This document shows, one piece after another, positions 1-62,219 of a stretch of DNA of 64,000 nucleotides. Each line of letters opens with the position of its first letter. Position 1 is the stretch's first letter. Both the position numbers and the translations under genes were made by a program. This DNA is from Actinidia chinensis (lineage: Eukaryota > Streptophyta > Magnoliopsida > Ericales > Actinidiaceae), in assembly GCA_009663005.1 (NCBI GenBank), contig CM018913.1, forward strand, positions 303,935-367,934. The letters are read 5' to 3'. Below the pieces are notes generated by a model, which saw only the letters and a list, made by a program, of their open reading frames with translations, had not been told where the DNA came from and searched no databases.

Positions 1-2793
1 GCGGAGCAAAGGAACATGAGGTCTTATGGCATCCACCAATGCAGCATGAAGAGTTCCCTACTCAACAAAATAGCATATATATATTCATGAGATGATAATG
101 TATCCTTAAGCCTGATTTTCAACCCTTTATTAATGGTGTAACATCCCAGGAACAATACGTTTTATGAACACCAAAAGATGAAAATTTAAGAAAATGCTGC
201 TACTAAATAATTCACCATTGATTATTTCACCTTAGTCGTGCTGTAACACATTGTTAAGTCCCAATCCCAACCTCTTTCTACTCTAGTTTGGGTCACTGCA
301 ATCTAAAAAGGATATTCATAGAACATAGTATCCATAAATATATATGATTCGAAAGAAGACACATGACGGACAACAACAAATTGATGATATTTGAAACACA
401 AACACCCGGATGAGAACGAACACTTTTAGGGGAAGATTTCTAACCTTTGAATGATTTAATGCTGCTTGGATAACATAATTTCCATAGGGATCTTGCATGA
501 TTTGATCTAAACGAGGATTATTTATCAACTCCTGGATAATACAAGATCGGCGTTCTTCTCCTGCATATTTCAGGCATTTTTCAACCACATTACTGCTATA
601 TTTCTGCATGGACAAGTCTCCATAGTTACCCTCCAGTTGGTCAAGAATATCCACCATTGCCCATGGAACATGAATTTCAAAGATAAATTGCACAACATAG
701 TTCCTGTAACAATGCAATTTAAAAATCTAAGCATAAAATCAGAGATGCAATAGGTCTTTCAACAAGTATTGCACTATGTGTTGTTTGGTTCCTTCATTCT
801 TTGAAGGAATTATATACCAGAATCATTCAATAAGTTCCCTGAGTTAGTGTCACATTTAGTTGACGAGAAGTGTTCAGACGGGCGCGCGCCCGTCTGAACA
901 CTTCTCTTTAGTTGACCCTCAAATTCATAGCACACATTTTCGAGTGCTTTATCACGAGTACTTCATGTAAATGGTGATAAGTTGGGAGCCCACATGTACA
1001 TAACCATATATAATAACATAGAGTAGCTGTTTAAGGAATAGAAAAAATAATAGGTGACATACAAATAGTGATGTTAAATATCCGCTGAGGTAAATTAACT
1101 TGAACTTTTACATTGATATAGTTGTGCGATACCTTATTAGTAAGAACTGGTAATGCCTTACCTTGAAAATAAACTACGGTTTTTAAATTCAAAAAATATC
1201 CATAAACTGTAATCTGCTTATTTAATAAGATGCTTTTTGAAGTATATGATATTCCACCTATCACCCAGTCATTCTCGTTGATTCTCTCATCTTGAAGCAA
1301 ATGATATGAGAGGGTTAATTTTATTACTTTACATTGCTCAAGCTACTGGACCTAACAAAACCTTGTATCATCTATTTGTATTGGCCATTGTTCTGCCACC
1401 CTGCTAATAGTGGGGCAATATGTATTGCTTATAAAATCGATGCCAAATGTCTCATGAAAAATTGTTTAAAGACATGTATTCACCTATCCCATAGAAATTT
1501 AATGGAGAAAATAATACAGCACTAACAACACATGAACAAGATAATAAAAGGGCAGAGAAAAAAAATAAGAAAAAGAAGAAAAAGAAAAGAAAAAAATAGT
1601 ACCCAAATTGATCTTGTGAAAGAATCAGTGCATTTGAAGTGATCTCACTGATCAGAAGATGCCTATGCTCACCATCAGAACGGTCAAGGCACTTTTGAAG
1701 CACGCAACAGCCATGACGGTCTGTTGCTAGTTCAACACAGTTACCAATTGCAGCTTCAAAAAGAAACTGCAGAAAATATCATCACCATAGATGTTAAAAT
1801 TTTCATGATAAAAGTAATGCTAAGGATGGTTTAATGCATCAATTAGTGAATGGTTGAACATAAGTAAATCAGTGTAGAAGTGTCCAGAAAATCAAGAAGA
1901 AGAAAGCATTACATATCATAATTTTTTTAACGTAAGATATTCCAAGAGATTCTGATGGAGAAAAAAAATTACTCATTGCCTAAAATATTGAAGTCATCTT
2001 AGACTTTACAAGTGATGCATTAGAATATACATCGGTTGTGGGATTAAGTTGATTTAGGCATTATTCATTGATTAATCATTCCTCTGCTATTTACATTAGA
2101 TTTATTTCAATCACTGTGGCTTAGTTCAACTCCATCAGCTTCTGCTAGGGTAAAGGAGTAGAGTTGATAGTTAGGTAGCCAGCCATCAAGGAATGATTTC
2201 TTTGGATCCCTTATGAACATGAATTGAAACATGAATATTAATATTTCCTTCTGCATTGGCAGTTCTCTTCAGCAACACCTTTGCATTCAGGATAAGTAAT
2301 TTTAGGTTATTTCCAATAACTCATATGTTTTTCATTTAAATACTAACCTTAACTACAGAAAAAGACCAAACATCTTGGGCGTTTATGGATATTACTACAT
2401 CAAACATGTCAAACGTAATTCATACTTAAACTATGGAACAACTGGCTTTTTTGAAGTTAGACCTTTTTTCACATACGCAATATCATTGATTCTTAAATTG
2501 TAAGCAAATTAACATATATGCATACTGTGCATCTGTTCATGCTCCTTACCTCACAATATTCAGGCGATAAATACTGTAAACATCTTTGTGCAACATGGTT
2601 TCCATTCATGTTCTTTGTCACAGTAACTATACCAGGCTTCAGTGAAGAAACAACCATGGAAAACTGCTCTGGAGTCTTAAGGGTTTCAATGATCTTCTGG
2701 ACAGCTCGAGTCCTGTGTTCATAAGAACAACTAAGCCGGTGCTGAAAATATCAAAAGAAGCAAAAAAAGCAACAAATACCAAAAGGGACAAGC

Positions 2794-2849
<56 letters not shown>

Positions 2850-7814: not shown

Positions 7815-10800
7815 TTAGTATCCATATCCTGAATTGTCCATGGGGTTGCCAGCAGCTACTGGTTCAGGCTCTTTGATCTCAACCACCACACAATCTGACA
7901 TCAAGAATGTTTTCGCCACAGAGGCTGCATGTTCCAAGCAACATCTGACCACCTGAATCACCACAATATCAGAGTTCTCAGGTCAGTGGAAATAACTTTT
8001 CAACATGAATCCAGTAACCTAACAAAAATGCAATCGAAATTGTCATCTAAAAACAATAGAACTAACCCCAGCAAACAACAAATGGAAACAATGCATAGAG
8101 AAGACACTGTTCCTTAGAAATAGTCAAGGGAATCAAAATCTATGAGCATGTATCTGTGTTCTACCAGAACATATAATTCAAAACAATTGCATCTTTTAAG
8201 ATTGGAAGAAGAGTCCACGGCAATGAAGAAGTCATGGCAATGCAGAGGACATTATATGCGTATTAAAAAGATCTGCTCCCATATTTACCATCCTTCTACG
8301 AATATTTTAATAGCATCCTGTCTTAGCATACAATAATGCGCAATATCATAAAGAATAGGGCCAAATTACACTTTACAGGCCCCATTGAACTATGGCCCGG
8401 CATTACTTTACCACCTTAAACTAAAAAATGCTAAAAATTACGACCAGAATATGAATATGAATATGAATATGAATTTGAATTATGATACTGGAAAGGTAAA
8501 AACATAGAGATGTTTTTAGTTCAGAGATGTATAGCGACACTAAGTAATAGTTCAAGGAACTAAAGTGCAGTTTGCCCAAAGTTCGATTTGCCACAACTGA
8601 CCTTGGTTGGATCAATTATTCCAGCAGCCATTAAATCCTCGTATTTTCCAGTTGCGGCATTGTATCCATATTTTGGGTTATCACTGGAGAGCACCTGCAG
8701 AGGAAATAACAAAATGTCATCCTTAAAATATACCAAATATATCATGAACACTGACAACACTTTCTCAAAATATCCTTAGATGTGTACCTTCTCACTGACA
8801 ACACTTCCATTAACACCAGCATTCTTGGCTATTAACTTCAGGGGGTAACTCAAAGCCCTCTTAACTATATCTGCTCCAACCTGCAGCCCACTCTTTTAAT
8901 TAGAAAAAATTATACTGCAACCAAGAATAATATCGTAAGAATCCGAATGTACAATTGTCATATAAGTTGCGGAACCATACTGCAACCAAGAATAATATCG
9001 TAAGAATCCGAATGTACAATTGTCATATAAGTTGCGGGTTCCGCAACTTATATGACACTAATTATAGGAACTCCTATAATACCTTGAAATATAACAAGTC
9101 TAAAAGAAAAAAGGAAAAAAACCCTCTATAGGCATCATTGTTGCACCAATATAGGAAAAACATTTTCCCTATTGAGGGTAATGGTAAAGTAGAGGAAGCT
9201 CGAACTCAACATGTGTTAAAATGTTAAGAGAAGACATGGTCACTTGGAGTTAACTTGACACCCCTATATAAGAATAGAGAAGGAAAACAAATACCTTTTC
9301 CTCATCATTATCAAGGTTCTCCTTGATGGCATCAACTCTTGATGCAAGCCTCAACAATGTGCATCCACCACCAACAACAATGCCTTCTTCAACAGCTGCC
9401 TGAAAATCCATTTCAATGCCACTGTTAGATGCTATTATCATGTTGCCAACATATCTGATCTTTAAGTAAACTGAACTTTTCACAAGGAACTTGCCTTTGT
9501 TGCATTAAGAGCATCTTCTACTCTCAATTTCTTCTCTTTCAGCTCTGTCTCAGTTTGTGCTCCAACCTTCAAATTTGATTGGAATAAGTATGCATAACAT
9601 AGTCAAAAGTTATCAAGCTTCAAGTGATCAAACTACATGATAAATGGTTACCTGAATGACAGCAACACCTCCAGACAGTTTTGCGATTCTTTCATTAAGT
9701 TTTTCCTTTTCATAGCTTTGTTCTGCAACCTGCTCATATAACAATGCATGGTAAGCATTTGGCATGCGCGCACCTGCACCCACACACCCACACCCACAGA
9801 GAGAGAGAGAGAGAGAGAGAGACCTCTATAAGGTTTTTAATCTGGACAACACGTTTATTTACTGCATCCTGAGTGCTTCCATCACCAACAATGGTCGTTG
9901 AATCCTTGGTAAGCACAACCTTAGCAGCATGGCCAAGAACTTCTTTATCAGCTTTGTCTAAGGTAAGTCCTACCTCATCTCTGATCACAGTCCCTATATG
10001 CCAGGAATACAAAATCTTTTAATAAACAAGACGAGGAAATAAGCATATAAAAAAAACTCCTGTTTACATTTGTGAAAAGAGAAACTATATAGGCAAAATT
10101 GATATTGAACAATGCAAGTTATGTATGCAAGAAAATGAATACAGCAGCTAAAAGAATGAACTATGACCTCCAGTCAGAATGGCCATGTCATCAAGGTACT
10201 GGCTCTTTCTTTCCCCAAAACCAGGAGCTTTCAATGCTGCAATTTTCAGTGCCCCTCTAAGCTTGTTCACAACGAGAGTTGCCAAAGCTTCTTGCTCAAT
10301 ATCTTCTGCAACTACCACAATTGGGTAAGCGCCTCTAATAGCATCTTCCAATACATTAATAAGATCCCTTGCATTTGTTATTTTCTTGTCAACCAGCAGT
10401 AACTGCATTGAACCAAAACAGAGCATATAGACAAAATCAATATTCATCCACTAGATAAATCAAAAAAAGAAGGTGCACTACTTCACAAGTGTAAGAAATA
10501 TAACAAGCATTCCTACCTTGCAGTTCTCATATTCAACAACCATTTTCTCACTATCAGTGACAAAGTAAGGTGAGATATAACCACGCTCAAATTGCATTCC
10601 TTCGACAACATAGAGGCTGTTCTCGGCACTTTTTCCCTCTTCAAGGGTCACCACACCCTTACGACCAATGTACTCATGGCTTCAGCTATAATATTTCTAT
10701 TTCAAGTTTCCAGACTAACGCCAGCGAAACATCTGCTAGCTCGCTTCTTCAACCTGCAATTTTGTATGAAGTTAGTAAATCCTAGAGGACCTAGACTATT

Positions 10801-11965
10801 ATAACAGAATGTGGAAAAAAAATCAAGCTTTTCATTGAAGATTATCCAAAAAGAAGAATTTCTACAGCTGCATTTATAGCTCGCATTTCCCCTTTTGCGA
10901 GGTTACTTTCCTTACCTCTTTTGACATCAGTTTAAGCTCACTGACCAAAGCTTTTGCGGTCTTCTCAATGCCTCTGGTGATCAGAACAGGATTTGCACCA
11001 GCTGCAACCACCTGAAAAAGTAATAACACTCAGCAATATAGATAATGACATGACCACTCTTGTTGAAGTACTCGTGGATTTCCAAAAAGTTGAACATCAT
11101 GAAATTTCACACTAACCTTGACACCTTCAGCAATAAGACCTTGTGCAAGAACAACAGATGTTGTTGTCCCATCTCCAGCCAAGTCATTGGTCTTTGCAGC
11201 TGCTTGTCTGACCAATTTAGCACCAATGTTCTCGACTGGATCTTCCAATTCAACCTAAAAGAAACAGAAACCCAGTTGTAAATATTTTAGGGCCCCAATT
11301 ACAGAAATTAGTTTGATTGTGTGACAGAAGTTAATGTGAATTCTTCTATAGAAAATTTACAATATTCAGATTGTAAAAATTATATGAACTGGGAGATAAT
11401 TGCAACCTCCACAAGAAGGTTGAAGTACATAAACTGCATAAGATAATTCGGTTATGAAGGGTAGTCATAAAAAAAATCCTTGAAGTCATATCGGTAGAGA
11501 ACATGTACCTCTTTGGCCACCGTAACACCATCATTAACAATTTTTGGGGACCCATATTTACTCTCTAGAACAACATTTCGACCCTTTGGACCAAGCGTAA
11601 CCCCAACAAGATCTGCAAGCTTGTTCACACCATTCTGTCACATAAAGGAAGAGTATCTTTAGTAATGATGTGCACATAAACGATCACTTCAATACAAAAT
11701 CAAAACTCCTTATTGAGATACTCACTTGCAGCTTCTTAATAGCCGACCCATCCTTGTTGAAATATAAATCCTTTGCCATTGCAGTTATTCTTGGAGAACG
11801 TGTTCTCCGGAGAACAACATTTTGTCTCCTACCAAATGATCTTGAAGATATGGAACCAAAAGAAGATGATTTATTCAAAGAAGACCCAAGTTTCCTATCT
11901 GTCACACAGGTGCCAGGTGCGGCTAAGGAACCAACCGAAGATGAGGCAATGAATGTTGACGCCAT
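7815..11965 (-). CDS. CPN60B: Chloroplast chaperonin 60 subunit beta (RuBisCO-binding protein beta)
   Basis: This subunit of the plastid Cpn60 folding chamber folds RuBisCO large subunit and other stromal proteins with ATP and Cpn20/Cpn10. Thirteen exons splice by eye: 11965-11726, 11634-11509, 11254-11117, 11011-10916, 10753-10517, 10402-10168, 9993-9824, 9729-9652, 9566-9495, 9399-9295, 8880-8788, 8694-8602 and 7952-7815. About 606 codons result. The first ~53 residues are a Ser/Arg-rich transit peptide, and the mature part starts near [17 protein letters not shown]. Chaperonin signatures seen are [28 protein letters not shown] and GGGCTLLRL. The C-terminus is [10 protein letters not shown]. 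Exon 5 is 237 nt where the conserved protein needs 243 by my alignment; it has lost six single bases between about 10660 and 10753. All other exons are intact, so sequencing error is likely. The intron after exon 9 has a GC donor. Confidence 0.93.
8912..9057. repeat. 65-bp tandem duplication ending in a hairpin, CPN60B intron
   Basis: A unit starting ATACTGCAACCAAGAATAAT occurs at 8912 and again at 8977, and the copies are essentially identical. The second copy ends in TGTCATATAAGTTGCGG (9021-9037), which after three bases is followed by its exact reverse complement (9041-9057). The structure lies in the intron between CPN60B exons 10 and 11. Confidence 0.85.
9799..9822. repeat. (GA)n microsatellite directly at a CPN60B splice donor
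   Basis: On the gene strand exon 7 ends at 9824 and the intron starts GTCTCTCTCT, so a CT run begins inside the 5' splice site. A GTGGGTGTGGGTG stretch follows. Confidence 0.85.
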
Positions 11966-15082: not shown

Positions 15083-18000
15083 TCAGTTTGCCTCTTGTTT
15101 TGTTTGAAAATCTGCAATAGGATTCTCACGGATCACAGACAAAGTAGCCTTGTCATCGGAAACCTCAAAAGAAGGAACCTGAAGAGGCTCCAATGAATCG
15201 ACGATGTCTCGCATAAGCGGTCGTGCCTTGGGGTTACGGTGGAGACAGTGATAAGCAAGCATGCCCGCCTTGTGAAGTCCTTTTACTGGATAATCTCCCT
15301 CGAGTCTTGGATCCACAATGTTGAGCAGTTTCTTCTTCTCTCGAAGGAAAGGGAGGGCCCAGTCTGCAAGGTTCTGCTCGCGGGCTGGCCGTGACTTGTC
15401 CAGAGATTTTCGGCCTGTGACAAGTTCTAAAAGGACCACTCCAAAGCTGTAAACATCGCTCCTAGGTGTCAGGTGGCCTGCATAGGTAGAAAGAAACAGA
15501 CGGGCATCATTTTGGTGACAGGTTTAAAAGGGCAAGAGGGATCCCCTATCCCCAAAATTCTATCACTTTGTCTCAATGTATTTACAATCACATCGTCACG
15601 TGAAAATCTTGAAACATAGTGAGTCTTGAGGCATGATTGTAAAATGGGTGGGTAGTGCATTGGGACAATGAAACTTAGACGTTTGGGCAAACACTCGTGT
15701 CCTGAATTTGACAACCCTAAATTGATCTCTAATGGACTAGCCCAAATGTGATTTGAGAATGAAACGATTGAGCACATGTAGGCTAAAACATGCAACTGTA
15801 AAAATATATGGAAGCTTTAGAGGTTCAAAAATAAGAATAGGAAAGCGAACAGATTCACTTCCAATCAGAGGTAAAGAAAGCTTGAACTTATTTTGACAAT
15901 AGGAAGGGAAAAAAGAAACAATTGATTTGAACTGAATAATACTGTTTCAGGGAGAAAGGAGATGAATTAAAGAGTAAACCCGTCATAATGTACTCTGGCG
16001 CTGCATAGCCGTAAGTTCCCATAATGCGGGTAGAAACGTGAGATTTATCCCCTACAGGTCCATCTTTTGCAAGTCCAAAATCCGAAAGCTTTGCATTGTA
16101 GTCCTGTTTTACAAACCATAATGGCAAATTAACAAAGCTGGTGTGCTAAGATGAGACTAATATTCAAGTATGAAAGTATCTGTTGCACAAGTATACACGT
16201 ATGGTGTTCAATGTGAATTTTAAGCAAGTCTTAGATGTGGTTTTTAAGTGGAGTAACTTAGGTATGTAATTCAATAAATGATGCAATAGAAGAGAAAAAG
16301 ATAAATAAGATATTGTATGATGTATGACATGTGTGTCAAGTGAAAGCTCCAAAATTATCATCCCTATTTTTTGGAAAACCAGAAATCACATCTTGTTGAC
16401 ATTATTATGTAGCCTCAAATATGCATCCATTTTCTCGTTATACTCTTTTGATGAAACCAAACTGATTTGCAGATTATGGAGTTTCTAATCTTACCGGGTC
16501 TAATAAGATATTAGAGGTCTTAAAATCGCGATAGATGACAGGTTTCTCAGCTTCATGGAGAAAAGCAAGTCCTTTTGCAGCCCCAAATGCAATCTTCATT
16601 CTAATGGACCATGAAAGAGGAAGCAATACTCCTGCAACAACGGAAAACGATATATATTTTAAAGCATGATATATGTACCATCATCAAACAATGAATCTTG
16701 TCTATGCCAACACTAGGCCAAATGGCTGTTAAGTGTGAAGTCGACGCATACAGAATATAATTCTCATTTTCCTTAAGACAACTTTACTAGTACTGTAAGT
16801 TAAGACATCTGACACATTTCATAGATTCGCAACGAAAAATATAAATTTGTCACGTTTAGCATTTTATTTTTTACGCACATGTATATCAGTATTCTTGACA
16901 TCTTCGTACACCAATTTTCTAAGAACTTGTCTTGTTGGTGTATCCATATTGCTTCGTTTTTCTATCTTATTTCTGTATGTGTGCTTCATAGCCTCTTGTT
17001 GGATCCAATGATTGTCTTAGATCATTTTGCATGTCTCCTGTTTAAGGTAAATAATAAATAAGGGAGGTCATGCTATGCTTTCACAATCACCTTCCTTTCC
17101 TTGAAAAAGGTATCCAAAGTAGGTGGCCACTTATATTCATCCTCTTGTTTTGTTTGATGCCCTTTTTTTCTATATTTTTGGCCTTAGGGTCATCCCCGTC
17201 TTGAAGAACAAAATATAGGTTGCTAGACTAATTAATTCTATTAACCACTATAAGTTTGTCTTTCCTATGGCTGCTTTCAAATGCAAACAAAAAGTTAGTG
17301 TTTCAATAAAATTGACATCTTTAAGCACGGGTACAAAATTGCACGACTTGACGCTACACCAAAAGTGTTTGCCCCAAATCATAGGTTGGATGAATGAGAA
17401 TTGACATCTCAACTGTAGGAATTTGCAATTTCTGCGCAGGGTGGAGAAATGAATTTGCTTTGCTTGCTTTTATCAGCCATTCTTTTACTTTGTAATTCAA
17501 ATATTTGTCTGGGTTATAAACAAATGGTTCCACAACAAGAATCTTGTCTACGTCTAATCGTCTATAATAGGCCAAATGGCTGTTTTAATTAGATAAATGA
17601 ATCGTTTTTGCCATTGAGATAAGAAAAAAACGGATCTTGCGTTCTGCATGGTGAAAGAGAGAGAAAATGATGAACTTACTTGAGAATAGATTGTTTTCCA
17701 CACTACCTCGAGCCATGTACTCGTATATCAGTACACGATGTTGGTCTTCGCAGCAGTATCCGATCAATTTCACCAAGTTGGGATGAGATAGCTGCCCCAA
17801 GAAAATAACTTCGGCCTAAAATCCAAAACACTCATTCGCAGGACGGATCCAAAAAATACATTTTATCAAAACATATAAATGATCCAATTAAGAAAATACC
17901 AGCCACTCTCTATGGCCTTGATAGCTGTTATCGCCATCATGAACCTTAACGGCTACTGGAATGGGATGAAGCCCCTTGCTAAGATCCTCGGTGACAAACC

Positions 18001-21490: not shown

Positions 21491-21496
21491 GGGCGC

Positions 21497-26707: not shown

Positions 26708-26715
26708 GTACACCC

Positions 26716-33766: not shown

Positions 33767-33792
33767 TGTGTGTGTGTGTGTGTGTGTGTGTG
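33767..33792. repeat. (GT)n microsatellite in a subtilase intron
   Basis: About 13 GT units lie ten bases after the donor GTAACA of the exon ending 33756. Confidence 0.9.
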
Positions 33793-36080: not shown

Positions 36081-36948
36081 GGAATGATTTTAGAAAAGTT
36101 TCCTGGAACAATTTCTGGAACAGTTCACTATTTTGAACAATAGATGAAAATACAAAAGTCATGCCACTCGAAACTCCTGTTTGTTTCACTATTTTGCAAG
36201 GGCTTTAGCAAATGCTTACGATATTTTCACCTTAAGTAAGAGTACCTATTATTATGATATCAACTAATGTTCTTAAAATGCATTTAATTTACATTCAATA
36301 ACTCCTACTGACCTGCTCTTTCTCTTTGTTGTTAAAGCTTACACAAGCGACACAACCTAGGACAGTATCTTATTCGGGGGCATAGCGAAAGCAGCTGATC
36401 CGCTTGACATTGGCGCTGGCCACTTCGATCCATTGAGAGCAATGGATCCAGGGCTAGTCTATGACGTGAAAACCAGCTATTACATTCTCTTCCCCTGCAA
36501 CATTGGCTACACCATAGACCAAATAAACAGCATTGTTACTCTCTCCCCAAGTACCATCTTGAGCTGCCTCAAAGGGTCATACCTATACAACGAAAACCTG
36601 AATTACCCCTCCATAACGGTCTCAAATCTCCAGTCTACGGTGACCATCAAGAGGATTGTTTGCAACGTTGGGTGGAAGAAAGCAGCCATCTATTTTGCAA
36701 GGATTGTGAAGCCTAATGGCATGGAGGTTGTGGTGTGGCCAAGGGTATTGATATTTTCATGTTTTAGGGAAGAAGTGTCACACTATGCGACTTTCAAGCC
36801 ACTGAAGAAATCTCAAGGGAGGTATGATTTTGGTGAGCTGGTGTGGTCTGATGGGTTCCACTCTGTTAGGAGTCCACTGGTTGTGCTTGTCGGCACTGCT
36901 AGTACTATTTATGGGGATGATTCCGCAGTTGATAAGGCGAACATTTAG

Positions 36949-40155: not shown

Positions 40156-40187
<32 letters not shown>

Positions 40188-46069: not shown

Positions 46070-48349
46070 AATAGTACAATTCAGTATAATTTGTCAGTGT
46101 GAGATGGCCAGCCAATCCTATTAATTAGTCAGGTTTACTTTTTCCCTGTTATGTTATGGAAATTCCATTTGACACTCTAAATTATTTTTTTTCGAGATAT
46201 TTGTAAGACCTAAGCTGATCTGTTTACTGGTCCTAATGAAAAGTCCTTACAGGTATGGGAAGGGAAGCCAATTGATTGAAAAGAAACAAAGAAGGGGCAA
46301 ATGGGGAAACTGAAACAGATGTGCCTCTGAATTTGGTGGCGAGTCTAATTCCCTGTTCATAATGTGGGGATGTTAATCTTTCAGAAAAACGTAACCGTTG
46401 CAAAATGTGGAGACAACTACAACGGTGCTGAATCAGCTCCATGTCTGAGAATAGGAGTTCTGACAAATGGTTGCTAGCTTTGTCTTGACGGGTGGCCTAT
46501 GATGTTTTACGGGCTCCATCTGTCCAGAGATATCTTGCTGGTTTATAATGATATACAGTGGGAAAAAAAAAAGCTGGCTAATTCTCGGTTGGGCCACCCT
46601 GCGTGATCGGCCTTGCTGCTTTCTTGGATTAACAAAATGAATGGGCATGGAAAGTGGTGAGGCGGGCTCTATTTCGTAGAATGATGAAAGTGGGAGCCTC
46701 TTTCTTCTCATGATGGATAGGGGTCTTGTAGCGGTTAGTTCTGACAGTGTCTCGGGGTGGTATCCTGGCGTTTTTTTGTTTGTCTTTCCGTTTTCCTTTC
46801 CATTTACCTTGGTTGGTTTAATATCTTTTCCCGTGTTAATGTTTGTCTCCCTTTTTCTTTTTTTGGACTATCACCTTTTATTTAATAGTTTGGCCTTATA
46901 TTATGTCCCATCTCATTTGTAAATCTTAGTCTAGTGAGTGTCTAGTTGTTGCCAAAGGAGCTTTTGTTGCTGTGTTTTTAGAGAGCTAGAAGCTGCAAGG
47001 TGGGAAAAATTGTAGTGCAATATAAAGTTGTTATAAATTAAAATTGTGTTTGACAATAATAATAATAATAATATTTGTGTTTGAATGTAGAAACGCTTCC
47101 AATACCAAAGCAGTTGTAGTTGTTGTGTGTTAAAAACTGCTTATCTCAAGTGTTTTTTGTCCAGGCAATGAACTAATCACGCGTCTCGTGCCTTCAATCA
47201 TTCTCTTTCTAGAATTGTGGTCGCATTGTCTAATTAATAGTATTTTTGTCTCTCTCTCTCTCTCGTCTCTCATTTTTGATGTAAATCTTGCAAAGATCAA
47301 TTGTCAAAGTTCTCATAACAACGGATACACATGAAAGGAAACTATACAGGATTCATATCCATTCATTCATAAAGAACCCATGGTGATTTTGCAATATTAA
47401 GACTTTCCTCTGATTGTCCTGGACGAGTAGTTAGCTTTTCCTGTACCACCATCACGATCTTAATCTAGTCAAGGCTGTGTTGAATTAGGAGTTTGGAAGC
47501 AAAAATAATAACAAACAAAAAGGTATGGAAGCCTAAGAATATATAAGGAGAAAAATTAGGTATGGAAGCGTAAATATAATGAATGAATAATTATTTTTTC
47601 GATTGTACATGTAAATTTTTGTTGGCATAGGAAAATAATAAGTAAAAAAAAAAGACACATGTGTAATTGGACATTAAATAGTACAACTAAAATAGATTGA
47701 GAATTATTTCTTACAGATGGTTATGGACCTGGTGGGGGGCCGCACACTTGCATTGCGTTCATCTTTTTGGTTAGATGGATTAAACACTACTCAACTCAAG
47801 AACACAATGACCACGAGTCTTTGACAAAGTGAAGGTGTGTACTGCAAGTCACATGAAATCATACTCAAAATAATAACAATTAATTGTTGGGATAGGTTTC
47901 ACCAGAAATGGACATAATAGAACAGCAACGGTTGAAGTAACATTAAAATTATGCGTCTGTACTTAAATGAGACAACGTGAATTTGATACGTCATTGGTGT
48001 TGTAAATTTGTAATTAGCGTACAATTGGGTGATAATTTAAGGATGAACACATGAGTTTAATTCTAAAGAGGTGTATGTAGCATAAAAATTAATATTAATT
48101 TTAATTTTAAAATGACGAAAATCTATTTTAATTGAAAATTTAAGTAGGTAATACTATTATACAAACAGTCTTAAAGATATAAAGAAGTTTACATACCCAC
48201 ATATCTATCCGTTTCGCTTTAAGTCGACACGGTATTGTTCGAAGTTTTGTTTGGAACGTAGAGTAGTGTTCAATACTACAATCAATCGACCTTTTCTCTC
48301 TTTATCTGTACAAAATCTGTTTAATTGAAAATGGCCAGAAATTTGAGGA
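46070..48349. other. ECT 3' flank and spacer
   Basis: This holds the likely ECT 3' UTR, then AT-rich spacer with short ATA and TC microsatellites (about 47048 and 47251). No coding sequence is recognised. The last few hundred bases are the upstream flank of the E1-beta copy. Confidence 0.5.
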
Positions 48350-48919
48350 AAGCCCATCAGGCAGCAAACTCTTCTCTGCAATTAACCAAGCCCTTCACAT
48401 AACCTTGGATTCTGATCCTCGGTATATACATACATTTTGTTCAATTACCCTTTTACGACTACTTTTTCTCTTTAATTCAATTCTGTATATATATGGTTGG
48501 GTTTTGCATGTATATATATGTGTTTATTTTAGCTATCTAATGTATAATTTGCTCTTGGCTTAGATAGATTGTAGATTTTAGTTGGGATTATTGCTCTTAA
48601 ACTGGTTAGCTGACTTTTTATGACGTGTTTTGATCTGATTTCAAGAATTATTTAGGAGGAAAGAAGAATGAATTGATATCATATATGTGATCCATTGGTG
48701 CCAAATTAATTTATTTTTGTATTGGTGAAGAAGGTCCCCGTTTTTCATTTGACTCAGTTTCCTATGTTTTTGATATGCCTACAATCAGTATCCCCTCCAT
48801 TACCCTATAATCTGTACAGATACGTGTGTATTCATTTCTACTATGTACTCTGTAATTTCGCTTGGCTTCAACAATTTCGGGACTTGATTATAACAGATTA
48901 TACTTGGGATTGTTGTTCT

Positions 48920-49185
48920 TTAAGGCTTCGTTTGATATAAGATTTTGAGAGTGGGATTGGACTATTAGTCTGTTGTGGGGCTCACTTTAATCATGTTTTA
49001 GTACAAAAGTTAAACTCGGGACTAATAGTCCATTGGGGCTGTTAATCCCAAAAATGGAGATTAGGAATCCCATGGGTGGTTGGTATTACTAATCCAATCT
49101 CATGGGACTATTAATCTAAGGAAATTGGGATTGGATTGCTAATCCCATTAAATTAGAATATGTTATCAAACATGGCATAAATGTC
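48920..49185. mobile_element. MITE-like element in the first E1-beta intron
   Basis: The left end GGCTTCGTTTGATATAAGAT and the right end, which reversed reads GCCATGTTTGATAACATAT, are weak inverted repeats. The interior has several GGGACTATTAGTCC-like motifs. About 265 bp, non-coding. Confidence 0.4.
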
Positions 49186-50269
49186 TAGCTGACTTCTTAT
49201 GACACAGTTAGATCTGTTTCCAATAATTATTTAAGGGAAAAGACGAGTGAATTGATATTATCTGTGAATCATTGGTCCAAGTTAACTTATGTTTCTCTTG
49301 GTGAAGGTCACTGCTTTTCGTTTGGACCAATTGCTTATTTTTTAATTTCTAGTTTATGAATTTGAGGTGCCTATAATCAGTAAAAGATTCTTAAAAGACC
49401 CCCTTTAGCTTGGCACAGTTGATTGGTTCTCAACTCTCATAGCTGCAGTGCCTTCTCCACTGCAAAGGGATTTACATATAGGAAATGATTAGGAACTGAC
49501 TTAAAACATACAATGCATTATGCATAACCAATTAGCTCTACCGTGCAATACTTGTGAAAAGTTGTGTACTTTTCTCTACATTCATTTTATGAAAGGAGAA
49601 TGACTATGAAGCACAAATACTTCATTTTAGCTGTTGTAGCAGTGTATGGCATGTGTCGGACGTGCCGGAATGCATGTCAGACACGCCTCGTGGTGAATCT
49701 TTATTAACCTGTACTGGGCATGACATACGTATCTCAGGACGCTTAGGACAATACTTGTTGTATATTGCATGTTCATACTTCAGAGTTGAGTTCTAAAATC
49801 AAACTACATTAGTTTGGTGATGAGGTCAGTGAGTTTGTTAGTTGCTTTTCTTTTCTTTTTTTGTATTACCATGTTTTTAGTTCTCTAGCTTAAGGTGTGT
49901 TGAATGCATGTCCCCTTAAAAAATTGAAACTTCTAAAAGGGACTGAGATTGTGAGAGGGAGGGAGTATATACTTTCTGCCTTATCCCTGCCATGTCTGTA
50001 TCCTTTTTTTTATATTTAAATTGCGTGTCCTGATGTCGGTGCTTACATCATGCCTGTACTTGGTAGTTGTTATCCGTTGTCCTGTAGATCTGTTTCATTG
50101 AACCTTTGGGACTGCCTTGCTGACTTATCCCCTCTTTTTTTTGAACTTCTGCATCTTCCCTCAACCCTGACTCATCAGTGCACATTCAATTATGATTAGC
50201 TACTTGTTTTCTTACCGATGTTTGAACAGCTTTACAATTATAACTACCATGCATTAGTTCTTCTACGTG

Positions 50270-50358
50270 CATGTGAACCATGATGCCTGTATTATTTATA
50301 GTCATGTGACATGCATGCGAACCATGATGCCTGTATTATTTATAGTCATGTGACATGC
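50270..50358. repeat. 44-bp tandem duplication in an E1-beta intron
   Basis: GAACCATGATGCCTGTATTA and the following sequence occur at 50275 and again at 50319 with no visible difference across the unit. Confidence 0.9.
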
Positions 50359-53300
50359 ATCTATCTTCTTTTCTTTGTGTTCAATCTGCTTGCTTGCCAC
50401 CTCTGTGACATTGTTTTATATATCGCATTAGGGTTATACCTGCATCAATGAATCAAGTATGCTTGTCTAAACATCATTATGTCGATGGGGGTTGGGTGAT
50501 GGGTGGAAGTGGAGATTGGTTATGATAGTTTTACATGGCAAAGATATGCAAAGCCATTTGGCTCAACTTTTAATCCCAATTTTTGGCTGCTTTTATGAAA
50601 AGAAGATTGCTATTTCGCAACGGCCTTTTCAGCTTTTAAATATTCTTTTTTTGGCCAAAAAGCTGAAATTCTGAAGCCCAATAATGCCCAACAATTAAGC
50701 AACCAACCAATTAAAAAAACAATGCCATAGACAATTCAACATTAATAAACTAAGCAGGTTTTTACATAGTTTGCTAGATGCCTGAAAAATCAGCCAAACC
50801 GTCTGTTTTTTAATACTGAACCCAACAATGCAGGGGGCTTATTTGTACCATGCGAACCCATACATTGTCAGCTGTACAGAAACTTACCTTTTCAATAATC
50901 TGTTCTTCATAGTGCCTAGGTATTTGGAGAAGATGTGGGCTTTGGGGTATTTAGATAAACAACAGGTAGCTGAATCGATTGGTAACAGAGAGTTTTCAAT
51001 ACCCCTCTTTGTGGAATAGGTATAATCTTTATCTTAGATTGCTGGGCCTTTATAATTTTCTGAGGCATTTTCAAGTACTTCCTAAATTAGGAAGGTTAAG
51101 TAAGGAATTTCTAGTTTGGAAGCTGATTCACTTTAACATCAAACTCAAAGATGGAGTTGTTATAAGAATCTCACGTGTATTCAATACTTTTACTATATTG
51201 ATCTTGTTCTCCATTTCTTTTTATCAATGTTCTGATTTTTCTTTTATCTTGAAACTATTTTTTTTTATTTTTATGAATGTTACAATAAACAGGGGCATCG
51301 TAGGATTGGGATGGTCTGGCTGTGATGTAAGCTCAAAACTTTAGTAGATTATCGTATAGGGGATTTTATGTCAAAACCCTCCATTGAGTCTGCTTATTGC
51401 CTTCCTCGTCTTAATATTTCGCATGATAGCTGCAACTTGTGTCAATTCAACAGTGGGTAGGCAAATCGAGCTACAGAGAAATTAGAAATTCAATTTGCAG
51501 ATTATATCTATCCGCATTGATCAGGCATGCATCATCCATGGTGGCAAGTTTGTAGTGCATCCTCACTATTGAAATTTGGCTAACTGATTTCTACTTCATA
51601 GATTGTCAATGAAGCAGCTAAATTCAGATATCAGAGTGGCAATCAATTTAATTGCGGAGGTAATTTTACATGAAATTATTAGTATCAATTTAAATTGTTC
51701 GTGTTTCCATTGCGTCCGGAGGATTCTTTGTGATTTACCAGGTTTGACAATAAGAGCACCTTATGAAGCTGTGGGTCATGGAGAGCATTATCACTCACAA
51801 TCCCCTGAAGCTTTTTTCTGCCATGTTCCTAGAATCAAGTTATATAATGTGCTGTTGTATGCTCCTTCCTTTCATCCCTCTCTCAAGGAGCAATGCCCCC
51901 ACAGCATCATCTAGATCGTGCAGGATTTGGGTGACTTCCATTGAGAAAAAAGGATGCTTGACATCACCTTGATTATTTTAAGAACTGTAGGTAGACATCC
52001 ATTTCTCTCAAGAATGAGTAAAAATATAATGCATTACATTTGAAGAAAGAGGCATGGTAAGAGTAGTCGTAACTCGTAAGGACATGCAATGCTAATTTCT
52101 GAATGATGAAAATTCAAACTTTTGTTTTATTCATTCCTAGAAAGAACTACAGGCATTTACTATTATGTAGATCAAAGAACTAATTTCCTTCAACTAGGAC
52201 ACATATCTGGTAAAGTACGAAAGTGCTGACATGTTAGATTATGAGCATTTGATATTTTTTTTCAAGGACATTACTTTCAATAACAGAATTTGGACTAATG
52301 CACATTGGAATTGGGGGAGTTCCATCAGTTTTAACCAGATTCATAGGGTTATGCCATATGACACACTAACATGGCTTTTAGGGCTTACTTGGAGGACCTT
52401 TAAGGCTTACTTGGAGGAACTTTTATGTTTTCTCAATTTTCCAAAGTTGATTAAGAAAGCTGTTCCTGCATTTTGTACAAGTAGAAATATAGACACTGTC
52501 CAATTTCTTCAAGAGTAGTTTGTTTGTAGGTTGTAATTCCTCGAAGCCCCAGGCAAGCGAAAGGGTTGTTATTGTCATCCATACGCAACCTGAACCCTGT
52601 TGTATTCCTTGAATCAAAGGTATTGCATTATTCTCCATTGATTTATCTCGAGTCATTGGATCCAAAACCTTGTCAAATGTTTTTTTGAAACATTGTTAAT
52701 AATCTAAATATCTTGGATTTTCAGTGGCTTTACCGTTTGGTCATCGAAGAGGTGCCCGAGCATTATTATATGTTGCCTCTATCAGAGGCAGAGGTACGTT
52801 AATTTTAGTTCTATAATTGATGGAGTACACTAAATCTGAAGAAATTGCGTGCATCAAATTCTGGTGATTCGAGAAGGTAGTGAGTCTAGTGACATAACAC
52901 TAGTTTGGTTGGGGTGCTCAGCTAGCTATCATGAAAGAGGCCCGTGTTGAGGCTGATAAGGTAAATGATGCACAATATGTTTCTAATTAACTTCCAAAGT
53001 GTTATTTGCATCAAAGGATCACAAATATGCCAGCAGGTGGTGTTAACTTTGTTTCATTCTGAACTATTTGTTTCTCTTTTTTATGCAACAACTGTGCGCT
53101 TGTGCGTTTGATGTGAGTGACGCAAATAGTTATTCGCCATGTGAGAGTTTGCAGGAAAGAATTTCTTGTGAGCTGATTGATCGAAGAACTCTAATACCTT
53201 GGGACAAGGAAACAGTGGAGGCCTCTGTTAGCAAGCCTGGAAGGCTTCTTGTAAGTATTAAATGTTAAAACCATTGTATAATAAACTTTCTGAAAGTGGT

Positions 53301-54285
53301 AGTTGCAACTCTTGGTAATCTGCCTGATTTCTTATTTGTCGATTAGTCATGAAGCTCCAGTAACTGGTGGATTTGGTGCTGAAATTTCTGCTCCCATTGT
53401 CGAACGTTGCTTCTTGAGGGTAATCTTGCAACATTCCAATCCCTTATTTCGACTCAGTGTTATTGGTTGATTGCTAGCTTTTCAGTAAAAATGCCAAGGT
53501 TGAATGTCTTCATTATTACGCTTGAGAAGCTACCACTACTGATGGTCAAAGTATTTTGCATATGAAGCATTAGATGTGCTCTTACTTCTTGACAGATATG
53601 TGTCCGGTTCGGTCCGTCCACTCGTTCAAATGGGCCGGAAGAAAAATAAGAAACTGAATGGAAAGAAGAAGAATGATACCACTAATATGCATGCTTAAAT
53701 CAAACTGAATAAAATAGTACTGTAGTATATAATGCATCTTAAATAAAAAGGAGAAATAAGTTCAATTAGCTAGAAAATCTGTCATAGTAATTTGTTTACT
53801 GCATTAAGACGCACATAGGAGGACACCTCTGTTGCAGTAGGAACGTGCTGCATGTCTCTAAGTCGTACATATATGCATATAGGGATTTTGTCTACCTATT
53901 TACTGGTTTGCCATATTTTTCTGGTCATAGTTCTTCTAAGAGTTGCACTCAAGTGAGAGATTTTCTATATGATTGTGTGTCCATTAAAATATCATGTGCC
54001 CGTTAAAATATGACCCGACCATATATTGGATTGGTCTTAGTGGGCTGATTTTTAGTCGCTTTTCCAGTCTTCAAGAATTTAATTGGGATAGGCTTTTGAG
54101 AAACTCCTTTTCCACTTGTTTTTGATTCTACATGCCCACCAAGAACAAGGTTAAATCTGTTACCAAACATTTTGTACTGGTCTGTGTTGAAAAGATATTA
54201 ATGCTATTGCCACTTACAATGGCTGCTGCTGCTCTACTTTTGAATGCAGATATTAGATGCAATCAATTCAACAGTGAATTACTAG

Positions 54286-55832: not shown

Positions 55833-58800
55833 TTAGGTGTCATACCATTGCTGAACTTTCCTGAACTCGGTAAGAACTGGGTATATATTCTCAAAGGCAG
55901 AATAAGTCTCATCTCTCACCTGAAGAATTTGAAGAAACACAACAGTGCAGATTACAGACAGCCAGAATACCTTATAAAACCTGAAAAACTACATGAAAAA
56001 GTCAATGAGGCAACTTCCAGATCTTATTCATCACCTTCGCGCCTGTAAGAACAATTTTCCCAGAAACAAATATAAGCAGCACAATTTTTGGTTGTTTCAT
56101 CCGGTAGATCAATCCAGGGAACAGTTCTGGTTCATACTGTATCACAAGCCTGATCTATCATTAGTATTATGAATGAAGAGATTGATGCATTTGCCTTAAT
56201 TTAAAAAAGCTTCTAAACATGACATGACCAGTAACACTGTCAGCAACTTTGGCAGTCAGTTGAGGAAGTACATAAGATAGTAAGATACATTGAACAACGC
56301 CCAAAAAAGTTACAACAATAATCTACTTTGACCTTCTTCTGGATTATTAACTAACATTCTAGACCAATTATAAACCAAGGATTGCAGAACACAACCTTAA
56401 CTGCAAAACTTTATCCTGTCACCGTTGATGCAATGCAAAACCTTCTAGGATTTCCAGTTACAGCCATGACTTTTATATGAAGACCAAAAAATATACATAT
56501 CGAAACTCGCTATCACTTACACTTGAAAAAGCACCATGGGAGTATGCAAGGCCTTCAAGTCTAATTGGAAATTTAACGTCACATGAGCCAACTATGTTCT
56601 GAATCTTGAAATCCTGTGCGGAAAAAAAGAATGAGTATGACAACTATCTAATCTAAGAAAGTGACAACCATAGGGTGACTGATATGTGTGTTGTATCAGT
56701 ATGTGCACACTTTTAGGAGTACATACCTTGAATTTAGCCGGAAAACCGAGCTTTTGTATGATTCGAGCATACTGGCAAAAAGCAAACATAACACATGGGA
56801 ACATATTTTTAAAAAATAAAAATAAAACATCAATACCACACACCTAGAATCGATTCAAATACCAGGTTACACTTATCACAATAAAGATGACACAGAAAGT
56901 TCATCATGACATTCCTTCTACAGTAAAAAGTTGAAAACTTCAATGCTTATTGATAAAAATATCATTCCTTCTACCTTGCGTGCTGCCAATTTTGACTGTT
57001 GTTCACTCTTTGCCCCAGTACAAACCTGAAGCCACATGAGAAGTACTTAAGCAATAGAAAGGATAGCCAACCAATAACTTTTAATCCATATAGTGACATT
57101 CAAATTGCATTAACATATTATGAGAGGCATTAGATGTCAACATAATATTTTTCCATTGACCATTAGCACTTGATGTCGACATCATATTTTAGCAATATGG
57201 AACTCTCAAAAATAAAGAGAGCCTGTGAATCTTGAACAGACATGAGAAAGCTTTTCATGCGATCAAGTCATGCAATCCTGTTCCAAGAACCAAAAATGTA
57301 AATTGTGCTAATTACAAGTATTACCTGTAACTCCATAAGCTTAAACTATTAAAGAATATGGTAGTTTATGTTAGTTGTTTAATTGCTCCTCATGTATGGC
57401 TCCTCACAAGTCACAAGCAACTCTGTACGTAAATGCATTAACATACCTCGGAAGCTTGGGGAATAGCAACAAAAAACAAAAGTCTCAGCAACCTATTCCT
57501 CTAAGGACTGCTAAAGGTAGATCATATGAAATGAAGGTTTTTCCATGAAACGGGTTGGGTTCAACTAGGGATATAGGATATGATGTTTCTTTCCAAATGC
57601 ATAATTATGCAAGTTACTGGTTCATCCTGTAGTTTTTTTCACAATACCCACTTCTTACATTATGGTTACCAGCAAGCATTAGGACCAATGAAAAAGAGTC
57701 ATCCTTTGTTGAGTCGGGATATGACACAATGATGTGAGGATAATATTTCGAAAACAGGCTTACACTATATGGCACATGAGGAATGCAAGTATAAATCTAC
57801 AAGCATCTACGATGTTCCATGGGCTACGCAAATCTGCAATTCAGCTATCATAGGCTAACTTAATATCAGTTTTGGGACAAGACAAATGCATTAAAATTTT
57901 GGGTGCTGAAGTTCTTTGTAAATTGAGCTCAAGCTATATATTACTTGACCTCAAGAGAGTATAGCAAGAAGACAGTATATTCTATGAAATACTGATTATG
58001 CAATGCATTTTCCTTTCCAACAGAAAAGACTAGCATATATCTCCATTCTTTTAAAATCGTGCAAAAATTACATTACAAAAGAATGGCAAGTAACACCCCA
58101 AAAACTACATAAGTAAATAGATGTCCTATAAGATTTTTAATTAATGATGCTTATTTTAGTTAAGAAAGCCTCAAATCAAATGCAACGAGTATCAGGTTAG
58201 CTTGGCTTTTAAAGTTGACACGACCATCAAGTAGTACAAGAGTCTCAACCTCCGGTTATCCTAGCATATAGGCCTTAAAAATTTAATCAGTTCATCTCTA
58301 CCTGCAACTATCAAGCAAGTAACAAAACCTCTCTAGAAGTGACGTGAAGACGTGCCAGCTCACTGTACACCAGAAAACCCCTAAAGAAATCATAGTCAAC
58401 CTTTAAATCTAGGCAGAGGATGTGATATGGGCAAAATGTTGTAGTAAGAAATAAAAAGCTTCATATTGAAACCTAATTTGTATGCCTGGAGTAAGGAGGA
58501 GACATTTTTGGATACAAGAAACAACAATTGTTTACGAAATTTTATGGGCAGCAAATAGTGTGGAATTTGATAATTTTCCATAAAGAACATAAGGCATGAC
58601 ATGGAGACACTCACCATCTTTCCAGAAGCAAATATTAATGCCGTAGTTTTTGGTTCTCTTATCCTCATAATTACAGCAGCAAAACGTGCCAAAAGGAGCA
58701 AAAGTAAGAAGATTCAAATAAAGATTGATAAAGAAATCAGAAAATACTAACTTTGAAAAATAAATTTTAATAAACTTCTTAAATCTTAGTTCTCAAAGTG

Positions 58801-61800
58801 CAAGACGGGATTCCAGATTTAAATTTTCAAAGGCTAAGCAGAAAATCTCAGTCAAACATACTCCATACCTTGGGATTGTATTCTGCATTTCGAGCTTGAA
58901 GTGCAATGGCCTTAAGATCCAACTTGCAGTCTAAGTTTACTGTTGACACTATGTTCCTAGTCGTACAGACAATTTGTTGTTAAGAATCATAATCAGTTGT
59001 TAACTGGAGAAAGAACGTCTTGCTACAAATTTGAATATTTTAAGCATGTTGTCCAGAAAATAATTGGGGATGGGATAGATACCCAAACAATCCTCTATAT
59101 GACTACATCAATAAGAACAAATTAGTAGTGCCACTGGTTTTCCATTTCCCAAGCATATTTTGGCATGTTTTATGGTGGTAGTAATCCCCTAGATGGAAAT
59201 TTATACATGTATCAGGTGCGTGCAGTTAGTGCAATGATCAAACTATAAAAGCAAATAAACAGACCAAGCAGCACCATCATTGCAATAGCACACGCAAGTG
59301 GAGAAATTTAGTTGGAACCTCTTTTACATGATATGCATATAAGAAGAGGATGTCCCCAACCCCAATTATCAAATGCATAAAAACCCCAAATCATCTAAAT
59401 CATACAAAGACGGGAATAACTTAACTTCAAAATACCCAGCATCTAGTTGACTTTCTTTTCTAATGAAACTAAGTAGTTGACGTCGCCAACCAGCTCTCTG
59501 TGCTTGATAAATGCTTCTTTAGTGCCTACAAACATCTAAGTCCAAATTATAGAAGGTAAACGCTCGACCCAAGTACAAAGTGATCAATATGAGTCAGTAA
59601 TTTTTAATAGGTGAATTGTAGGTATTAGCTTGGGGACTGGGGATACCACGTTGCTCTACAATCACAACCACGGCCCCTCATGATTGAGCATAAGCTGGAC
59701 AAGTCCAAGAGGATAACTTGGAAAGCCATCACCTTGTCTCCGCCGCGAGATCTAAGAGCCTGTGGACTGGAGGTAAAGATGGGAGTCTGCCAAGTAATGC
59801 ACCACGGTCTGGTACGAAGCGGAAGTGTGCACTACTTTGGCCTGTCTATTAGAAGAGAGAGGTCTGCATTTCTTTATTATAATGGTTCAAGTGGTCCTGT
59901 CACGTGGACTATAACAGAAACCAGGAGAGCACGTCCCTTGATTTCCGGTGAGGTCATAAGGACCTCACATGGGTCGATTAAGACCACTCACATGAGCTAC
60001 TAAAAGTCATGTGAGCGGAAGCCTATAGATAGGGGGACTGCTTTGTTGAAATCGACAAGCTTTAAACACTGTTCATTTGCTTCTCCACTAAAGAAGAAGT
60101 CCTGGATTATGCCTCTCTCTGGTAGACTATTGCTTTCTCTTTCCCTCTGAGTTATATCTCTTTAGATCCCTTACAGAGAACTACTGCTTTCATACATCCC
60201 ACTACTTCTCATTTCATACATTCCATATCGAGATCTGTCTCTTAGATCTCACACATGAACATAAATGTATAAGAAGGATGCCGAAGGGGCATTGCCCAAG
60301 TACATAAAAAGGGAAAAAATGGATGAATATACAAAAAAGACATAGTTATAAGCCCTCCCCAAAGTGTAACTCCCTCATGAAGTTCACTAACAAAAAGGAG
60401 GAGAGACAAAAGCCTCCTTAATCCAAAAATAAAAAGAACTAAATAAAGCCAATTTAGGTCTCGAGTAGCACCGCACGTCTTCAAAAGTCTGCATATTTAT
60501 TTCTCTCCATAAACACGACATTAAGCATAAAGGAGCAATTCTCCAGCCTCCACACCTTTTTGACCCTCTTATCCCGACGCTAAACATGCCAACAATCGAG
60601 AAGATGAATAGCCGAAGCCGGTGTAATCCAACTCACTCCAAAATCAAAAAACAATAGCCCTAGAAGGGAAAAAAATGCTCATCCTTGTCCAATTATGTTA
60701 TATGGGCTCTTTTCTAAACACCAGTACTCGTGTAGGACATTTGGGTAGATTACGGGATATGGTAAAAATCATCCACCCAACAATCACGTTTAGTATTTTG
60801 AGTGTACCATATAGCGATGCATAAGCACCCATTTAATCCAAGAAACATTCTATTGCTCCTTATAAACATCATTTTCCCCCGAAAACAAAATAGGTATATT
60901 AAAACGGATATTTTTGTAGTGTCCATGCTCTTTAGGCATAAGAATTGGATGAATCCGACGCTTAGAAACATACACTTATATGGGTATTTTTCATTTGCAT
61001 TGCTTCTAAAGTTATTTTTCATGTGAACCCAATTTCTTGGAATTTCAAATTTTTTTACCAAAATTAGTGATTGTGAAACAGATGAGTTGACGCTCTTGTT
61101 GGTCATTCTTGATGATTTTTCCTTGAGACCTAATGTTAGTAATACATGGGACATTGGTCAATTCAATCTTCGTAGATTTTCTCATGGAAGTGTTTCTTGG
61201 AAAAAATAATTGATACTCACATGTTTACCTTTTCTCCATTGTAAAAGAGTTTAGAAAGTTGTTGCACCCCTTAAACGTAAGGTAGCTACGTTCTATGACT
61301 TATTGAAGGCTCATGACTAATGAGACCTTCCAGAAAAGAATACCTGATAGTACACTAAGTGACAAACTGAGGTCTCCTTCCAGAAAAGGAGACTTGATGA
61401 CATATTGTGAATTAAAATTAATAAATTATACATAAAAATCTATAAAATATGGATATCTACAAGAAATTGAGGGAGGAGAGGCGACAGCAGTCTGGCCACC
61501 ATTCCCTCTGCATGTAAACTTCCAAGCGGACTTAAATCAATCATCATTTTTTAATGAAGGACAATTGGACTGAAAATCCAGGTTTAATAATTATATTACT
61601 GGATCTGCCAAGATTATCAATTATTGATCTGTGTATATGCATGAACAAGCACATTCTCCTGTGATTATGTGTGCTCGATCAGAAACTATGGTCATGGTTG
61701 CAAAATGATTGAGAGCTAGTTTACATATTCCAAATAGCACTTGATGCGAGAAATTCATACAAATAGTCAAGGAATACGTCAACAATTATTCAGTACATAT

Positions 61801-62219
61801 TTCAGCGCACAAGATAGTGTTTGTTTTCTTCAATTGCCACAAGTGAATGACAAACCGATAATCATATAAGTAAAAACACATTGTGTGAGTTCAAGATATT
61901 ATGGCGAATTTCCCTTCTTTTTCTCTGACAAGATACAACCATGCCAATGCACAAGCGCAGTTGAGGTGCACAAGCCTATTGTCTTGTTGGCATCATATAT
62001 AGCAGAATTGGCCAATTTTTCAAATCTAGCATATACGGAGTACATAGCTTTTATTACAATAATAGTACAACAATCTGGTGTCAATGTACAACATGGAATG
62101 GAAAAACTGATAGGGGGGATGGATTGGTGGGAAGGGACTCACTGGAGAGTTGGGACAATTCCAGACGGATGCTTGGAAAGATCCACTGGCTGGCTCCCTT
62201 CCAACACTTGATCCTCCAT
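55833..62219 (-). CDS. TBP: TATA-binding protein (TBP)
   Basis: TBP is the DNA-binding core of TFIID and is used by all three nuclear RNA polymerases. Eight coding exons splice by eye: 62219-62143, 58956-58869, 58686-58615, 57025-56975, 56771-56727, 56613-56521, 56136-56035 and 55919-55833. They total 615 nt, or 204 residues. The start is [20 protein letters not shown]. Both TBP direct repeats follow ([20 protein letters not shown] and the later [20 protein letters not shown]), with [20 protein letters not shown] and [17 protein letters not shown]. The end is EFRKVQQW plus three extra residues, YDT. Every exon length gives the right phase. One flaw: exon 3 is preceded by GGCA and no AG, so the acceptor seems to lack one G at 58686/58687. 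Intron 1 is about 3.2 kb and holds repeat debris. The product is certain. Confidence 0.96.
59617..60245. mobile_element. Possible solo LTR or LTR-like repeat in TBP intron 1
   Basis: The segment starts TGTAGGTATTAGCTTGGGG and is less AT-rich than its surroundings. Near 60023 there is a TATA-like CCTATAGATAGGG, and CT-rich sequence follows it, as in LTR promoters. The right edge is unclear and I could not verify a 5-bp duplication. An open frame at 59680-60003 in it has no recognised domain. Confidence 0.4.
60246..60720 (-). mobile_element. LINE retrotransposon 3' fragment in TBP intron 1
   Basis: On the minus strand, in more than one frame, the sequence reads like the end of plant LINE ORF2: [20 protein letters not shown] then QTFEDV, followed by [17 protein letters not shown]. 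The 3' part contains [20 protein letters not shown], also typical. It is 5' truncated and frame-broken. It is in the same orientation as TBP. Confidence 0.65.
60721..62142. other. Remaining TBP intron 1 sequence
   Basis: This AT-rich intronic DNA has no recognised coding sequence or regulatory motif. A minus-strand open frame at 60750-61154 adjoins the LINE fragment but shows no domain I know, and may be more transposon debris. Confidence 0.45.

Follow-up and report, generated by a model that had tools for sequence, protein, structure and literature searches.

Seven genes stand in one row in this part of the kiwifruit (Actinidia chinensis) genome, and the Arabidopsis counterparts of these genes are scattered. 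The locus raises the question of whether the row keeps the gene order that existed before duplication and loss, and whether it is the only copy and still a working one. A sequence-only reading had described it as an unsplit ancestral gene block. The whole stretch of DNA analysed here (the window) has a length of 64,000 bases and corresponds to positions 303935-367934 of contig C26, in a genome assembly of 638 Mb and 1499 contigs. According to the spliced gene models and homologue alignments, the genes are arranged along positions 1-62219 as follows.

4488 to beyond base 1, minus strand: APUM12-like Pumilio gene (Pfam PUF repeats, exon model; the 3' end lies outside the window)
11965..7818, minus strand: CPN60B, plastid chaperonin 60 beta (13 exons; homologue alignment)
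19628..15086, minus strand: PBL16-like receptor-like cytoplasmic kinase (6 exons; Pfam kinase domain, model)
31293..36945, plus strand: SBT3.18 subtilase pseudogene (homologue alignment)
43161..46071, plus strand (model to 45920): ECT, YTH-domain gene, ECT2/4-like (Pfam YTH, PDB YTHDF matches)
48257..54282, plus strand: BCKDH E1-beta pseudogene (homologue alignment)
62219..55845, minus strand: TBP (8 exons; Pfam TBP, model)

The splice-site gene models, together with the Pfam and homologue searches, bear out the seven genes and their order as originally proposed. The PUF, kinase, YTH and TBP domains were found by Pfam in four draft proteins (APUM, PBL16-like, ECT and TBP), and the identity of CPN60B, E1-beta and SBT3.18 comes from homologue searches. 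The domain families are confirmed in this way; the particular names APUM12, PBL16 and ECT2/4, as against other members of the families, are presumed, in part from position. The ECT model begins at 43161, and a further upstream first exon near 42960 lies outside the model. The best PDB match of TBP is the Arabidopsis-type TBP 1qn3 (residues 1-200). Over 594 aligned residues, CPN60B shares 97.1% identity with P0001 of A. rufa. Exon 4 of P0001 is annotated nine residues short at its end; the window can encode these residues with a consensus donor, and the gap is probably an annotation slip. For SBT3.18, the closest of the matches listed (the best 120 of thousands) is A. chinensis SBT3.18, and the Arabidopsis SBT3.18 is also included there as the sole Arabidopsis name. 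As the closest relatives of the window gene are SBT3.18 proteins, it would be a member of the SBT3.18 clade. The CPN60B and SBT3.18 matches identify the plant as an Actinidia. In an intron of CPN60B, a 65-base unit is repeated 1.9 times with no mismatch (window 8912-9037), and a similar 60-base pair is located at 23986-24106. Bacterial-style ORF, tRNA and Rfam scans of the window gave nothing useful.

Published locus numbers scatter the window genes over four Arabidopsis regions (At1g55330-55520, At3g13445-13520, At5g56460-56540 and At4g26320-26330), and the order within the regions agrees with that of the window. In the available passages of the cited papers, the CPN60B genes are At1g55490, At3g13470 and At5g56500 (PMC5780408, two passages of which swap the names beta1 and beta3), ECT4 is At1g55500 (PMC8789314), E1-beta is At1g55510 and At3g13450 (PMC2483283), TBP is located at At1g55520 (PMC4728435), APUM12 is At5g56510 (PMC5831739), At5g56460 is a putative kinase (PMC6791687), and At4g26330 is a subtilase (PMC7598583). 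A single table gives At3g13440 as a methyltransferase, At3g13445 as TBP, At3g13450 as E1 and At3g13460 as ECT2 (PMC3914955). The arabinogalactan-peptide clade of four, as given in the available part of its source, has one member near the genes in each region: AGP12 (At3g13520), AGP13 (At4g26320), AGP14 (At5g56540) and AGP21 (At1g55330) (PMC5372829). Wherever they can be checked against these passages, the Arabidopsis locus numbers given earlier match. We take PBL16 to be the name of At5g56460 and SBT3.18 to be that of At4g26330. If locus numbers track chromosome order, as is the convention, the four regions are collinear with the string AGP-APUM12-CPN60B-PBL16-SBT3.18-ECT-E1-beta-TBP. The AGP member of the ancestral string would sit just left of the window. 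The four regions would be sisters from the alpha and beta duplications. An alpha relationship between the chromosome 4 and chromosome 5 segments is supported by the accessible text of a paper that assigns GAMT1 (At4g26420) and GAMT2 (At5g56300) to a pair of segments from the At-alpha duplication (PMC7762392). A literature search for a text naming both At4g26330 and At5g56500 retrieved none, and we do not claim that the block is unpublished.

The order was also compared in other plants, using the locus tags in the homologue listings of CPN60B, SBT3.18 and E1-beta (best 120 cluster representatives of thousands per family). Among the matches listed, 19 genomes have tags for at least two of the three genes, and two or three of the genes lie close together on one contig in seven of these genomes.

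Rhododendron griersonianum: CPN60B 038220 and E1-beta 038224, nearby tags
Prunus speciosa: CPN60B 196430, SBT3.18 196410 and E1-beta 196340, nearby tags
Carpinus fangiana: CPN60B 009549 and SBT3.18 009545, nearby tags
Pistacia integerrima: SBT3.18 31471 and E1-beta 31474, nearby tags
Reevesia pubescens: SBT3.18 12eG0020200 and E1-beta 12eG0020500, nearby tags
Centaurea solstitialis: tags 028005 and 028006, SBT3.18 beside E1-beta or CPN60B
Rumex salicifolius: tags 001073 and 001075, SBT3.18 beside E1-beta or CPN60B

By these tags, parts of the string are seen in rosids, Ericales, Asteraceae and Caryophyllales. The Reevesia CPN60B proteins among the matches listed are on other chromosomes than its SBT3.18 and E1-beta. 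The compared genes are not neighbours, among the matches listed, in 11 of the 19 genomes, among them Camellia, cotton, Diplodiscus, several Asteraceae, Phlomoides, Paulownia, Turnera and Aquilegia. Escallonia rubra is a further case, with tags 20 apart but contigs that differ. Tag differences were tabulated for 16 of the 19 genomes, and the other three use chromosome-coded tags. Some of the non-neighbour genomes underwent genome duplications of their own, and further copies may be hidden in the homologue clusters, which could shift the neighbour counts either way. The chance estimate for tag adjacency is a crude one, based on 18 genomes as against 19 in the recount. Because neighbours occur in seven of the 19 genomes among the matches listed, and the window is collinear with a segment of contig C28 as described below, chance is not a sensible explanation of the gene row. 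The locus-tag neighbours and the agreement of the four Arabidopsis regions with the window order support the earlier claim that this gene order is ancestral.

Whether SBT3.18 is an ancestral member of the row or a newcomer had been left open. A late arrival of the gene, within the Actinidia lineage, would agree with Arabidopsis, where SBT3.18 sits in another region than the other six genes. However, the locus tags of the matches listed place SBT3.18 close to E1-beta or CPN60B in six plants (Prunus, Pistacia, Reevesia, Centaurea, Rumex and Carpinus), and the gene is also present in the C28 copy of the block. In addition, At4g26330 is numbered beside AGP13, and the clade mates of AGP13 are in the other three regions according to the available passages. 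An insertion in the Actinidia lineage is thus scarcely credible. Because of the tag neighbours in other plants and the number adjoining AGP13, the question can be resolved in favour of SBT3.18 as an ancestral member.

The genes had also been thought to be together only once, and this did not hold, as a second collinear copy is present on C28 in the same genome. The segment C28:201866-279998 is collinear with the whole window in reverse order, and most of the long pieces are about 82-93% identical. The 32 alignment pieces of at least 80 bases listed are all on one strand and in order, with window 1825-63140 aligned to C28 279998-201866. Only short local repeats are exceptions to this order. The dS values between the window and C28 are 0.102 (APUM), 0.108 (CPN60B), 0.157 (PBL16), 0.165 (SBT3.18), 0.120 (ECT), 0.145 (E1-beta) and 0.098 (TBP). 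The Ks peaks of the Ad-alpha genome duplication are 0.12-0.18 in the available part of the source (PMC6804796). The range of 0.098-0.165 observed here overlaps with these peaks, and TBP, APUM and CPN60B are slightly below. With the collinear order and with dS in this range, the window and the C28 segment are very probably an Ad-alpha homeologous pair; the Ad-alpha date of the pair would follow from the dS of one block, which is a weak basis for dating. Both copies are located less than 0.4 Mb from the start of their contigs (C26, 20.3 Mb; C28, 17.7 Mb). On C28, the PBL16, TBP and ECT genes are open, CPN60B is open over the 303 codons tested, and APUM shows no frameshift over the part compared.

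Own-genome searches with CPN60B, E1-beta and TBP gave matches on C26 and C28, including a further C26 copy for E1-beta and TBP. No other close copy of the three genes was detected among the best candidates scored, and the older Ad-beta event seems to have left no surviving copy of these genes. Distant CPN60 matches were found at C27:12868001-12875331 and on C159, C1300, C1330 and C19, with 43-74% identity to the grape protein in the matched pieces. Several of the distant matches contain internal stops. C27 was considered as a homeologue owing to its CPN60 match, and was dropped because it has just two short pieces in common with the window.

The further C26 matches of E1-beta and TBP share one offset of about 317.78 kb, and this second C26 copy was sampled in four pieces. 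The start of C26 (about 1-50000) repeats window 13851-64000, and the sampled pieces are almost identical outside short patches. Either one locus was assembled twice, or a very recent duplication occurred. The last exon of ECT and the exon-3 splice acceptor of TBP (near 58640) are damaged in the window only; at both sites, the second C26 copy reads as C28 does. These two lesions look like assembly error. The differences between the C26 copies are concentrated in a few short patches, including the following.

45900..46250, no strand: error patch at the ECT 3' end (C26-copy differences pile up; one piece 94.9% identical)
51000..51600, no strand: error patch inside E1-beta (C26-copy differences cluster)

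Nearly all the C26-copy differences in 50746-54351 fall within 51000-51600, and two are outside. Clusters of small indels resembling unpolished long-read sequence are observed at about 31500-31600, 45900-46250 and 51000-51600, and those at 2960-3160 and 10671-10750 are probably of the same type. The APUM frame is broken in exon 1 (near 3909), and several small indels are present in exon 2 (about 2960-3160). CPN60B has three frameshifts within about 80 bases of one exon (10671-10747) and none elsewhere, and the same three are obtained with three other references. The APUM and CPN60B damage looks like the error patches, and both genes lie beyond the second C26 copy. No lesion was found in the PBL16-like kinase in the window.

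Six of the seven window genes thus carry some disabling difference, as would be expected if the whole window copy were doomed, with every gene but PBL16 already losing function. However, the second C26 copy is free of the ECT and TBP defects. For CPN60B, dN/dS is 0.05, and of the 11 changes at conserved sites eight fall in the damaged stretch and only three outside that exon. General decay of the window copy is therefore improbable, and the loss of function is ascribed to SBT3.18 and E1-beta.

In SBT3.18, frameshifts at 32001, 32571 and 35227 and nonsense codons at 33925 and 36358 were detected. All five lesions are common to the second C26 copy and missing from C28. In E1-beta, the frame is shifted by at least four indels and interrupted by two nonsense codons, and these lesions are likewise common to the second C26 copy and missing from C28. 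On C28, the E1-beta frame stays open across 302 aligned residues. The C28 SBT3.18 is open over 681 residues apart from three flagged frameshifts, and these flags are located where the reference has a 51-residue repeat that C28 lacks. Several candidate lesions were not counted. The SBT3.18 frameshift at 31223 lies in the non-homologous start of the reference protein P0241 and is unflagged against grape. The E1-beta flags at 52531 and 53251 were created by the aligner, as C28 reads alike at both, and the E1-beta frameshifts at 51312 and 51325 are errors of the patch 51000-51600. The extra SBT3.18 frameshifts at 33758 and 34090 (reference P0242) and the one stop fewer with P0248 were not counted either way.

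Constraint was examined at conserved columns, defined as those at which 98% or more of the relatives have the same residue. The window is changed at 12 of 113 such columns in E1-beta and at nine of 132 in SBT3.18, and C28 is changed at none of the 113 and none of the 132. The E1-beta rate in the window is 10.6%, against a median of 0% and a maximum of 7.8% for the other relatives. When the changes are polarised by the family consensus, 35 fall on the window branch and four on the C28 branch in E1-beta, and 18 and one in SBT3.18. Between the window and C28, dN/dS is 0.78 for E1-beta and 0.49 for SBT3.18, and 0.05-0.39 for the other five genes (0.14 for the PBL16-like kinase). The dN of TBP is too high, because the window model misplaces the exon-3 junction.

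It could be argued that sequencing or assembly error accounts for every window lesion, SBT3.18 and E1-beta included, and that the block is fully functional. Error patches do exist, as the ECT and TBP defects and the clustering of the C26 differences show; the damage in APUM and CPN60B likewise consists of small indels in clusters, and four of the E1-beta flags proved to be patch errors or artefacts. Both C26 copies nevertheless carry the five SBT3.18 lesions and the E1-beta lesions that remain, although the two copies may not be independent if one of them is a false duplicate. The strongly raised number of conserved-residue substitutions on the window branch also argues against this reading, since indel errors do not cause such substitutions. 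Error as the sole source of the lesions is thus very improbable. The SBT3.18 and E1-beta of the window are pseudogenes, each with a working homeologue: the lesions are shared by the C26 copies and absent from C28, and the constraint is relaxed. The word 'unsplit' consequently stands for the gene order and fails for gene function. The sequence-only reading had missed the broken SBT3.18 and E1-beta and the local damage in several other exons.

The window SBT3.18 also contains a repeat.

32991..33539, plus strand: exact tandem duplication in SBT3.18 (period 295 bases, 1.9 copies)

The 295-base duplication is present in both C26 copies, and the segment is single on C28 (C28:231007-231259). The A. 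chinensis protein P0241 has the matching 51-residue repeat and otherwise equals the C28 gene. The repeat copies are identical to each other in the window, and likewise in P0241, and four of 51 residues differ between the window and P0241. The duplication may predate Ad-alpha and may then have been homogenised within each homeologue, lost in some haplotypes, or exchanged between homeologues, although we regard this account as doubtful.

Taken together, it is highly probable that the window is an Ad-alpha homeologue in ancestral order, that Arabidopsis retains four remnants of the same string, and that SBT3.18 and E1-beta on C26 are decaying beside working C28 copies. The observed gene order, C28 copy, shared lesions and relaxed constraint would be accounted for as follows. 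Genome duplication would supply spare copies, and genes would then be lost independently from each copy. In the Arabidopsis lineage, the beta and alpha duplications would have copied the string, and different losses from each copy would have left the four collinear remnants. In kiwifruit, the younger Ad-alpha round would have produced the C26 and C28 copies, and C26 would have lost SBT3.18 and E1-beta so far. As C28 kept working genes where tested, SBT3.18 and E1-beta on C26 would have been free to decay.

Gene loss after polyploidy is well known, and the block is a well-documented example of it rather than a new phenomenon. It provides a worked case in which one ancestral string is represented by remnants in a highly fractionated genome and by two nearly whole copies in another. 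It also illustrates how the duplicate gene for a metabolic enzyme subunit (E1-beta) is being lost in a plant, with the neighbouring TBP and CPN60B still under constraint. A single window may pass for one pristine block even though it is one of two copies and contains dead genes and error patches. Dead genes and assembly error patches must be told apart in such windows.

The collinearity of grape, tea and kiwifruit is 1:2:4 in the available part of the source (PMC10515239), and the window fits this pattern as one of the expected kiwifruit copies. In contrast to the pattern, CPN60B, E1-beta and TBP, the genes searched genome-wide, yielded just the Ad-alpha pair. As far as the accessible parts of the sources describe them, the Ad-alpha homeologous segments known since Huang 2013 (cited in PMC10515239 and PMC6804796) are of the same kind, with two collinear segments and dS near the peak. 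The present pair differs from them in that each of its genes is resolved and two of those on one side are dead. The paralogous regions of the Arabidopsis alpha and beta duplications resemble the kiwifruit pair, as both show reciprocal gene loss from one ancestral string with the order kept. In Arabidopsis, however, the string survives as four remnants with little overlap, whereas in kiwifruit it is present nearly whole, and twice.
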